A DNA stretch of 64,000 bases from Cetobacterium sp. ZOR0034. Its GTDB lineage: Bacteria > Fusobacteriota > Fusobacteriia > Fusobacteriales > Fusobacteriaceae. Shown here piece after piece: positions 22,153 to 27,174 of the stretch (within the stretch, counting starts at the first letter, position 1; each line of letters begins with the position of its first letter). The DNA lies in contig NZ_JTLI01000006.1 of assembly GCF_000799075.1 (NCBI RefSeq), positions 1 to 64,000 of the forward strand, read 5' to 3'. The translations under genes and the position numbers were made by a program. The notes beneath the pieces are model-generated. The model had not been told where the DNA came from and made no database searches. It worked only from the letters and a program-made list of their open reading frames with translations.

Positions 22153-23257
22153 ATGGATATTTTAGAATTAAAAAGAGAATACAATCAGTTTAAAAATCAG
22201 ATTGATGCTATAAGGGGGTCTCTTTGACTTAGATACTAGAAAAGAGAAAATCTCATCTTTAGAGAAAAAAACTTTAGAAGATGGATTTTGGAATGATAAA
22301 TTAACTAGTGGAAAAATTATAAAAGAGATGAACGAGGAAAAAGATATAGTTAAAGAGTTTGAAACTATAGAAAATATGTTTTTTGATGAAGAGATTTTAA
22401 TAGATTTTGTAGATTCAGGAGAGGAAGATTTTGTAGAAGAGTTAGAAGAGAAACACTCTAAGCTTATGCAAACGATAGAAAATTTTGATACAAAGATGTT
22501 ATTAGATGGAGAATATGATGGAAACAACGCTATAGTAACAATTCATTCGGGAGCAGGAGGAACAGAAGCTTGTGACTGGGCAGATATGCTATATAGAATG
22601 TATATGAGATGGTTTAATAACAGAGGATACAAAGTAACTGAAATGGATTATATGGCGGGAGATTCTGTAGGGATTAAATCGATAACTCTTTTAGTTGAAG
22701 GAACAAGAGCTTACGGGTATTTAAAAGGTGAAAAAGGAGTACATAGACTTGTTAGAATATCACCTTTTGATGCGAATAAGAAAAGACATACATCTTTTGC
22801 TTCAGTAGATATAATGCCTGAAGTTGATGAAACGGTTGAGATAACAATAGATCCAGGTGATTTAAGAGTTGACACATATAGAGCATCGGGAGCTGGTGGA
22901 CAGCACGTAAATATGACAGATTCAGCAGTAAGAATTACTCATATACCTACTGGGGTTGTTGTAACTTGTCAAAGAGAGAGATCACAACTAAGTAATAGAG
23001 AAACGGCTATGAAACTTTTAAAATCTAAACTTCTAGAGATCGAGATGAAAAAGAAAGAGGAAGAGTTGAAAAAAATTCAAGGAGAGCAAAGTGATATTGG
23101 TTGGGGAAATCAAATAAGATCATATGTATTCCAGCCTTATACAATGGTTAAAGATCATAGAACAGCTGTGGAGTCAGGAAATATTAGAGCCGTTATGGAT
23201 GGAGATATAGATGACTTCATAAATGGGTATTTAAGATGGTCAAAAAATAAAAACTAG
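22153..23257 (+). CDS. prfB: peptide chain release factor 2, made by programmed +1 frameshift
   Basis: Release factor 2 reads UGA and UAA. The first 24 codons run from the ATG at 22153 (after TTAGGAGG) to an in-frame TGA at 22225-22227; ribosomes must slip +1 at CTT to continue from 22226 to 23257, giving about 367 residues. The catalytic G-G-Q motif is in S-G-A-G-G-Q-H-V-N near two thirds of the chain, and the N-terminal domain has the usual E-D-G-F-W-N-D. The tripeptide anticodon region is in the D-P-G-D-L-R-V-D-T-Y-R-A stretch. The split frame is normal for this gene and is not a defect. Confidence 0.96.
22213..22228 (+). promoter_or_regulatory. prfB programmed +1 frameshift site
   Basis: AGGGGG (internal Shine-Dalgarno-like, 22213-22218), three bases, CTT slippery codon (22222-22224) and TGA followed by C (22225-22228). 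The layout is the same as the E. coli site, AGGGGG-N3-CTT-TGA-C. Low RF2 leaves the UGA unread and favours slippage, so RF2 regulates its own level. Confidence 0.96.
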
Positions 23258-23327: not shown

Positions 23328-24839
23328 ATGATGGAAAGAAGAGTAAGAACGAGAATCGCACCTTCTCCAACAGGAGATCCACATGTAGGAACAGCTTACA
23401 TTGCGTTATTCAACTTAGCTTTTGCTTATAAAAATGGTGGAGACTTTATACTAAGAATAGAGGATACTGACCAAAACAGATATACAGAAGGGTCAGAGCA
23501 AATGATATTTGATGCTCTAAAGTGGTTAGGATTAGATTACGCTGAAGGTCCTGATGTTGGTGGACCAACTGGACCATACAGACAATCTGAAAGATTCCAC
23601 TTATATGGAGAGTATGCACATAAATTAGTTGAGAAGGGAGAAGCTTACCACTGCTTCTGTACTCAAGAGAGACTAGAAAAATTAAGAGAAAGACAAAAGG
23701 CTATGGGAAAAGCTCCAGGATATGATGGACACTGTAGATCTCTTTCAAAAGAGGAAATAGATGCTAAATTAGCAGCTAAAGAGGAGTTTGTAATCAGACT
23801 TAAAATGCCTTATGAAGGAGAAACAATCATAAAGGATAGATTAAGAGGAGATATCGTTTTTGAAAATAACAAAATCGATGATCAAGTTTTATTAAAAGGA
23901 GATGGATTCCCAACTTACCACTTAGCAAACGTTGTTGATGATTACTTAATGAATATCACTCACGTAATAAGAGCTGAAGAGTGGATTGCATCTACACCTA
24001 AGCATATCCAACTTTATAAAGCATTTGGATGGCAAGAACCTGAGTTCATACACATGCCTTTACTTAGAAACTCAGATAGAACAAAAATATCTAAGAGAAA
24101 GAATCCAGTTTCATTAAACTGGTACAAAGAGGAAGGATACTTAAAAGAGGGTATCGTAAACTTCTTAGGATTAATGGGATACTCATTTGGAGAAAACAAA
24201 GAGATATTTACATTACAAGAGTTCAATGAGAACTTTGATATCGATAAGGTATCTTTAGGAGGTCCTGTATTTGACTTAGTTAAATTAGGATGGGTAAACA
24301 ACCAACATATGAGAATGAAAGACTTAAAAGAGTTAACTGAGTTAGCTGTTCCATTCTTTAGAAATGCTGGATTAATCGGAGAAGAGTTAACAGAGAAAGA
24401 GTTTGAAACACTTTCAAGAATTGTTGATATATTAAGAGAAGGAGCTCAAACAATAAAAGAGATTGTAGCTCAATCAGAAGTATACTTCAAAGATGAGTAC
24501 ACATTACCAGTTGTAACTGAAGAAACAGATAAAAAAGAAGTAAAAGGAATCGAAAGACTTTATACAGTTATTCAAGATGAAGCTGGAAAGAAATCAATTA
24601 ATTTATTTGAAGAGAAGATTGCAGCTGAATCTGAAGAGATATCAATTGATAGAGCAAAAGAGTTATTAAAAGAAACTCTAGATACAATTGGAGAGGGACC
24701 AGGAAAAGTTTACATGCCTTTAAGAGCAGTATTGACTGGACTACCAAAAGGTGCAGACTTATATAACTTAGTTTCTATTATTGGAAGAGACAGAACTTTA
24801 GCAAGAATAGAGAGAATGAAAAAATTATACAATATTTAA
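23328..24839 (+). CDS. gltX: glutamyl-tRNA synthetase
   Basis: Class I aminoacyl-tRNA synthetase that charges tRNA-Glu (and possibly tRNA-Gln, followed by amidation), 503 residues. The HIGH-type box is P-S-P-T-G-D-P-H-V-G-T near residues 12-22, and the KMSKS-type box is T-K-I-S-K-R-K near residue 247. The N-terminal catalytic R-T-R-I-A-P is typical. Two adjacent ATG codons (23328 and 23331) are possible starts; GGGAGA fits either. It stands between its own promoter and terminator, and its codon use suggests high expression. Confidence 0.97.
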   Translation: MMERRVRTRIAPSPTGDPHVGTAYIALFNLAFAYKNGGDFILRIEDTDQNRYTEGSEQMIFDALKWLGLDYAEGPDVGGPTGPYRQSERFHLYGEYAHKLVEKGEAYHCFCTQERLEKLRERQKAMGKAPGYDGHCRSLSKEEIDAKLAAKEEFVIRLKMPYEGETIIKDRLRGDIVFENNKIDDQVLLKGDGFPTYHLANVVDDYLMNITHVIRAEEWIASTPKHIQLYKAFGWQEPEFIHMPLLRNSDRTKISKRKNPVSLNWYKEEGYLKEGIVNFLGLMGYSFGENKEIFTLQEFNENFDIDKVSLGGPVFDLVKLGWVNNQHMRMKDLKELTELAVPFFRNAGLIGEELTEKEFETLSRIVDILREGAQTIKEIVAQSEVYFKDEYTLPVVTEETDKKEVKGIERLYTVIQDEAGKKSINLFEEKIAAESEEISIDRAKELLKETLDTIGEGPGKVYMPLRAVLTGLPKGADLYNLVSIIGRDRTLARIERMKKLYNI

Positions 24840-24880: not shown

Positions 24881-24947
24881 GAAAAAAAAGAAAAAAAGAA
24901 ATTATGAGTAGTTTATTAAGAAGAACGTTTAGCATCAGAGGAGGACT

Positions 24948-25928
24948 ATGAAGACACATATTTTAATGGGAAAATTATTTTTAGAATCATTTAATATTTT
25001 GAAAGAAATTCAAAAAGAAATTCAAAAAGATCTGAAAAGTTTAGAATTTCAAAAAGAGATTGAGGTAGAGTTTAAAAATTTAAATTTTATGGAATCGTTT
25101 AAAAAAAACTTTTTTACACTGTTGATGTTATCTATTATGATTGATTGTAAAATATCTAAAAAAAATGTAGTTAAATATGGAAAAATTATTTTATATTTAA
25201 GACAGATAGTAACTTCGACAGATAATATAATAGATGATGAGAATAAAGGGATAATTTTTATAGATAGATTAAAAAATAATGTGGTTTCAAATAGTTTAGT
25301 GATGTTGTTTTGTCAAAATTTTTTGAGTAAAACATGCTTAGAAATAGATTTTAAGAGTTCTTTAAGTCAAAAAATTCTTAACAAGATATATTTGATTGCA
25401 GAAAGCGAAAGTTTAAGAGATAGAAAGTAGTATGAAACATATCCAGACGAAGAGTATGTTCTATCTAGAATTCATAATGGAATTGGGGGGGAGCTTCTAA
25501 AGATAAGCCTAGAGGTACCTCTAGAAATTGAAAAGAATAAAAAGTTAGAAGAGTGTGCAAAGGCAATATATGAAATTGGAATGTCTTTACAAGCTTTGGA
25601 TGATTTTTTTGATATTGATGAAGATAAATTAGCTGAAAAAGTAAATTTGTATGAGGCAAAGTTATTGTATTCTGAAGACGTCAAGGAAATTATAGAAGAG
25701 AGATATTTAAAAGAAGTTTCGGAAAAAGCATATGAAGGCTTTCATATTCTAGAAAAAAATGGTTATCCAATGAATAGAAAAGAGGCTAAGAGAATATTAA
25801 AAAAATTATTTGAATTGAGAGGATTGAAAGAGTATTCTAAAATTTTAGATGAGGAGGACGATTCTAAGAATGGATATGAAAAAGATTATGATAGCCAATT
25901 GGCAGAGTATAGAGTATGTGAATATTGA
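24948..25928 (+). pseudogene. class 1 isoprenoid-synthase-like gene interrupted by an in-frame TAG
   Basis: One reading frame of 327 codons from the ATG at 24948 (after GAGGAGG) to the TGA at 25926-25928, broken only by a TAG at 25428-25430 (codon 161). Protein features continue on both sides. An aspartate-rich cluster, D-N-I-I-D-D-E-N-K (residues 92-100), lies before the stop; the second, D-D-F-F-D-I-D (218-224), lies after it, in the order and rough spacing of the two Mg2+-binding aspartate motifs of trans-prenyl-diphosphate synthases. The chain is otherwise divergent, so product and substrate cannot be named. With the stop, only a 160-residue N-terminal half would be made, plus perhaps a fragment from a later ATG (25581). 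It may be a recent nonsense mutation, a sequencing error, or read-through. Its 3' end overlaps the next gene. Confidence 0.7.
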
Positions 25929-27174
25929 GATAGAGAAATTATTGATACTGATAGGTGAATCTAATAGAGGAAAAACAAGTATTCTAAAGGCATTATCAGC
26001 TTTCTTCGGACAGTATGAGATAAAGAAAGAGGACTTTAAAGATAGAACTAGACCGATTGAAATAAGAATTAAATGTTATAAAACTAATAGAGGTTTTTTA
26101 ACTTTAAAATTATTGAAAAGAGAGAACGAAGAGATAGAATATTACATAGTAGATCACGGAATAGAAACAAAAGTTGATTTAGAAATAATAAGAGCAGAGT
26201 ATATATCTCTTAGAGGAGCAGTTATCAGTTCAAAAGATAACGGAGTATATGAAGGACTTTTAAGAATAAGAGATATATTTATGGATACTATGGATAGTCA
26301 AATAATAAAAGATTTAAATAGTAAATTAGAATATTTAGGGGAGAATAAATTATCCCAGAGTTTACAAAGAAAGATTTTATTTAGTTTTCTAAAAAATATT
26401 TTGTATAGTATTGATGAATACGAAACAAAGATAAAGTCAAAACTTTCTGACTTGTTTTTAATATTTGAAGAACCTGAACTTCATTTGAATCCTCAAGAGA
26501 GCAGAGAGATGTATTCGCTACTAATAAAACTTTCTAAAATAGGGGTTCAGATAATTTTAGAAACTCACTCAAGTTATTTTGTGGGATTAAAACAGTATAA
26601 GTCGATTTGCTTAATAAAGAAGATTAGAGGAGAGATTAAAGTTTTTCAATATACGGGGAAACTTTTAAATGGAGATGAAATTAAGAATTTCAATATGAAC
26701 TATTGGATAAATCCAGATAGAGGAGAGATGTTTTTTGCTAAAAAGGTTATATTAGTAGAAGGACAAACAGATAAGATAGCACTTTCTTATTTGGCTAAAA
26801 AAATAGGGGTATATAATTATAGTTATTCTATTATAGAGTGTGGAAGTAAAAGTATCATTCCGCAGTTTATAAAGGTTTTGAATGGCTATAAAATACCGTA
26901 TGTAGCCGTTTATGATAAAGATAATCATAGATGGAGAAATGAAACAGAACTAGATAGTTCGAATCTGAAAAATAAGAAAATAAGAGGAATTGTAAATAGG
27001 TTTATTGGAGATTATATAGAGTTCGAAAATGATATAGAAGAAGAGATTTGCCAAGAGGAGAGAGAACGGAAAAATTATAAGAATAAACCATATTATACAT
27101 TACAAAAAATAAGTGAACTTGATTTTATAATGTCTAAAAAATTAGAAAATAAAATAAGACGCATATATAAATAG
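25870..27174 (+). CDS. OLD-like AAA ATPase with TOPRIM nuclease domain
   Basis: About 434 residues. The ABC-type ATPase part has Walker A G-E-S-N-R-G-K-T-S (residues 29-37), Walker B L-F-L-I-F-E-E-P-E-L-H-L-N-P and the H-loop E-T-H-S-S-Y-F. The C-terminal TOPRIM part has V-I-L-V-E-G-Q-T-D-K (metal Glu) and Y-D-K-D-N-H (DxD). This is the OLD-family plan; related proteins act in phage defence (P2 OLD, Gabija GajA). It is shorter than classic OLD proteins, with a small helical insert between the Walker motifs. Start choice is uncertain: an ATG at 25849 overlaps AGGAGG itself, while the ATG at 25870 sits 12 bases after it, which is long. The gene overlaps the previous frame by about 59 bases. Confidence 0.75.
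   Translation: MDMKKIMIANWQSIEYVNIEIEKLLILIGESNRGKTSILKALSAFFGQYEIKKEDFKDRTRPIEIRIKCYKTNRGFLTLKLLKRENEEIEYYIVDHGIETKVDLEIIRAEYISLRGAVISSKDNGVYEGLLRIRDIFMDTMDSQIIKDLNSKLEYLGENKLSQSLQRKILFSFLKNILYSIDEYETKIKSKLSDLFLIFEEPELHLNPQESREMYSLLIKLSKIGVQIILETHSSYFVGLKQYKSICLIKKIRGEIKVFQYTGKLLNGDEIKNFNMNYWINPDRGEMFFAKKVILVEGQTDKIALSYLAKKIGVYNYSYSIIECGSKSIIPQFIKVLNGYKIPYVAVYDKDNHRWRNETELDSSNLKNKKIRGIVNRFIGDYIEFENDIEEEICQEERERKNYKNKPYYTLQKISELDFIMSKKLENKIRRIYK

Follow-up and report, generated by a model that had tools for sequence, protein, structure and literature searches.

A lone in-frame TAG in an accessory isoprenoid-synthase-like gene of Cetobacterium sp. ZOR0034 is most likely an ordinary nonsense allele

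Amber-recoded systems (pyrrolysine and phage code 15) have an in-frame TAG with coding sequence beyond it, and bacterial nonsense-mutation pseudogenes have one in-frame stop in an accessory gene, a sense codon at that place in relatives, and repeated independent loss. Both sets of features are seen at a locus of Cetobacterium sp. ZOR0034 that we have analysed within a 64,000-nucleotide stretch of contig NZ_JTLI01000006.1, the whole of which is referred to here as the window; however, in contrast to such pseudogenes, the window gene has not decayed further as yet. The product is best compared with the trans-isoprenyl diphosphate synthases (PF00348; IspA/FPPS, octaprenyl and polyprenyl synthases), with which it shares a predicted all-helical fold and two aspartate-rich motifs in the expected order, of which the first has an asparagine at its second position. 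The locus, a possible case of recoding, is most likely a plain nonsense allele, and the gene that bears it is accessory.

The original prediction described a frame that contains both aspartate-rich motifs and is cut by a lone amber codon, and this description holds: translation of 24948–25928 gives 326 residues, with the TAG at codon 161 as the sole internal stop. The features of the region are as follows.

23328–24839, forward strand: glutamyl-tRNA synthetase gene (gltX), upstream, a neighbour conserved in several Cetobacterium
24937–24944, forward strand: Shine-Dalgarno-like AGAGGAGG 5′ of the ATG, also conserved in both closest relatives (G010 and G011)
24948–25928, forward strand: interrupted isoprenoid-synthase-like gene with an internal TAG and a terminal TGA, assigned by translation, homology and predicted fold
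25221–25241, forward strand: first aspartate-rich motif, D-N-I-I-D-D-E, in which D92, N93, D96 and E98 are invariant among 19 homologues
25428–25430, forward strand: in-frame TAG at codon 161, where both closest relatives have CAG (Gln)
25599–25613, forward strand: second aspartate-rich motif, D-D-F-F-D
25849–27174, forward strand: OLD-like ATPase/TOPRIM gene, downstream, which overlaps the interrupted frame at its 3′ end and may have an internal true start

At the base composition of the window, the chance of a 165-codon open stretch 3′ of the TAG is about 3e-7, and homologues without an interruption match the window frame on both sides of the TAG, with identities of 87% (G010) and 82% (G011). 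Because chance opening is so improbable and homology extends over the entire frame, we take the TAG-cut coding frame to be real, and protein-like sequence does resume past the stop as had been proposed. The claim that ATGs beyond the stop lack good ribosome sites was likewise borne out, as neither of those at 25581 and 25770 has a clear Shine-Dalgarno sequence, whereas the true start is preceded by one. The final 26 or so codons, beginning near 25849, share their sequence with the beginning of the following gene and are present only in the three-genome clade of the window (G000, G010 and G011). Stops were also seen within many homologues in the homology search, and these are mostly the normal C-terminal stop, which the search had read past.

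The nearest named relatives of the window genome are Cetobacterium metagenome assemblies. Both G010 and G011, which are Cetobacterium, have intact syntenic orthologues, with gltX upstream and the OLD-like ATPase gene downstream, and in each the codon at position 161 is CAG; glutamine is found in every further Cetobacterium homologue that spans the site, and leucine, isoleucine, asparagine or glutamine in those of other genera. The TAG is thus not conserved, and among the genomes compared it is private to the window genome. Judging from the codons of these relatives, a single C-to-T change (CAG to TAG) would account for it. We note that the codon preceding the TAG also differs, being AAG in the window genome and GAG or GAA in relatives. 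A very young pseudogene, a strain variant, a base-call error and recoding had been listed at the outset, with a comparison of relatives at codon 161 as a means of telling mutation or error from recoding; its outcome favours mutation or error, and the recoding part of that list is unsupported.

The gene has a match in 33 of the 61 genomes of the family and is missing from the other 28, and a homology search found no match in any of the 24 genomes from other families of the order. It has been broken independently in at least four other genomes: by a TAG at a codon other than 161 in G024, whose relative has TAC; by a 23-bp deletion in G035; by absence of the 3′ part in G062; and by an internal deletion with a change of frame in G080. 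The gene is accessory and dispensable. The loci in G024 and G035 (L014 and L020, respectively), which belong to the same genus, have been damaged separately near the same N-terminal place.

We consider it probable that a C-to-T change turned the glutamine codon 161 of this accessory isoprenoid-synthase-fold gene into TAG, and that the result is an inactive fragment, either as a pseudogene of very recent origin or as a null allele at the level of the strain. Normal RF1-dependent termination would yield a fragment of 160 residues, which is presumably inactive because it does not include the second aspartate-rich motif. Constraint is similar before and after the stop, with dN/dS values of 0.096 and 0.079, respectively, in the comparison with G010 and of 0.148 and 0.100 in that with G011, much as between the intact genes of G010 and G011 themselves (0.154 and 0.062). 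Replacement and silent codon changes are in similar balance, numbering 11 and 31 on the window branch (excluding the stop) and 8 and 32 on the G010 branch. With dN/dS at about 0.1 on both sides, the event is recent, or else the stop is a base-call error, and the original prediction of a frame that is undecayed past the TAG is thereby upheld. Selection of this kind, as estimated from the substitutions, would fit a very young null allele, an error and functional read-through alike.

An error of base calling, consensus or the assembly of a strain mixture, with a sense codon at 25428 in the cell itself, is an unlikely but by no means negligible alternative. The departure is one transition in a gene that is otherwise undecayed and under purifying selection, and the genome is a draft of 121 contigs. 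However, 463 kb of the genome, sampled by regions for TAG use and for frames with lone stops, yielded no second coding frame convincingly cut by a lone stop, so the assembly does not appear to be rich in errors; this absence is moderate evidence only, because the codon-score filter is coarse and missed the window's own TAG. One candidate for a second TAG-cut frame (L089) was judged by eye to be a non-coding shadow frame. Breakage of the gene in other genera, in genomes with few contigs, also argues against error. A nonsense allele, ordinary and recent, is most likely, ahead of a sequence error.

It is far less probable that the TAG is truly read through or recoded, for example as glutamine, at a level sufficient for useful amounts of the full protein. 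Constraint beyond the TAG equals that before it; a residue inserted at position 161 would probably be accepted, since the homologues show that glutamine, leucine, isoleucine and asparagine are tolerated there; and the genome has several copies of tRNA-Gln(TTG), a near-cognate tRNA that is a known weak reader of amber codons. However, no relative conserves the TAG. In contrast to the amber-recoded systems, TAG serves as a terminator here, and neither PylS (at its cut-off) nor a CUA tRNA turned up. The only profile match to PylS is below the cut-off, and 12 of 14 control genomes gave a match of this kind too; a pyrrolysine system was rejected on these grounds. No tRNA with a CUA anticodon is among those found in the draft, whose set is incomplete (33 matches, with several isotypes missing) because contigs break at rRNA and tRNA clusters. 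The RF1 gene is full length and intact on another contig of the genome, TAG is the terminator of 82 of 376 long frames in the 463 kb sampled, and RNA structure 3′ of the TAG is no better than in shuffled sequences (z 0.12). A literature search on Cetobacterium stop codons and amber reassignment in Fusobacteria returned nothing relevant. Recoding is thus without support, and read-through is unlikely.

A frame at 22328–23257 was considered as a truncated RF1 adjoining the gene and was rejected, as it is prfB, encoding RF2, with a programmed +1 frameshift. The whole of prfB lies at 22153–23257 in the window, with the classic programmed frameshift site AGGGGGTCTCTTTGAC just before 22230, and ORF callers would place its start late, at 22328.

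Reinitiation after the TAG, with the halves made as separate proteins that still function together, is scarcely credible: the second half is open and undamaged, but the first ATG beyond the TAG, at 25581, lies within a conserved helix just 5′ of the second aspartate-rich motif and has no ribosome site, and the gene of no relative is split at codon 161.

The identity of the protein was given originally as a trans-prenyl transferase; the isoprenoid-synthase-like part of this is confirmed by the predicted fold, and the activity itself is not established, as the family does not reach the Pfam and NCBIfam cut-offs and the motifs that bind isopentenyl diphosphate (IPP) are apparently absent. For the intact homologue in G011, an AlphaFold2 model with pLDDT 86.9 and pTM 0.85 has prenyl synthases as its best PDB matches, with Z up to 20.0 and identities of about 9–17%; residues 4–297 superimpose on polyprenyl synthase 4jyx with a Z of 20.0 and an rmsd of 3.5 Å over 267 aligned residues at 14% identity. 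The isoprenoid synthase fold is confirmed at the level of this model. Sequence profiles give much weaker relationships: the window protein has no relevant Pfam match, neither it nor its G011 relative matches PF00348 even at an E value of 1, and weak matches to PF00348 occur in five of 19 homologues (best E 6.8e-6). In the PDB set the best profile match is to an FPPS (E 0.009), and hhalign against the genome's own IspA gives a probability of 65% in the C-terminal half only.

In the aspartate-rich blocks, the residues that are invariant include D92, N93, D96, E98, K100 and G101 at the first and D218, D219 and D222 at the second, together with E225 and D226. The second position of the first motif is an asparagine, so that where PF00348 synthases have DD...D...RRG the window family has D-N-x-x-D-x-E followed by KG. 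The GGKRLRP, RRG and KTG motifs bind IPP and allylic diphosphate; all three strings are present in the genome's IspA but in none of the homologues (N-terminal parts compared by eye). As these motifs have no visible counterpart, it is doubtful that the protein elongates chains, and it may instead catalyse some other class I reaction; from sequence, trans-prenyl transferase activity is not established for a family that appears to be without IPP-binding motifs. We tentatively suggest, with rather less than even confidence, that this is an undescribed Fusobacteriaceae branch of the isoprenoid synthase superfamily that is without the usual IPP-binding residues, usually lies beside an exported-looking DUF2147 protein, has been lost repeatedly, and may cyclise or transfer prenyl groups rather than extend them, the TAG being incidental. 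An uncharacterised family with this fold and a recurrent DUF2147 neighbour would be open to biochemical test through an intact Cetobacterium copy.

The OLD-like ATPase gene downstream is conserved in several Cetobacterium; OLD-like ATPase/TOPRIM proteins are often tied to phage defence. Some other Cetobacterium have a DUF2147 gene between it and the synthase-like gene, and in nine of the 13 neighbourhoods read (L068, L069, L102, L103, L105, L107, L108, L109 and L110) a DUF2147 (PF09917) gene, encoding a short, exported-looking protein, lies directly 3′ of the synthase-like gene. A literature search for DUF2147 and polyprenyl synthetase together returned nothing relevant. G000, G010 and G011 have no DUF2147 gene of the neighbour type, only a 35%-identical paralogue elsewhere, and in these genomes the synthase-like reading frame extends into the start of the OLD-like ATPase gene. 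In the window clade the DUF2147 partner may have been lost before the synthase-like gene was, and its loss could have made the latter dispensable. Loss of the partner does not by itself force loss of the gene, because G010 and G011 keep intact copies without the partner.
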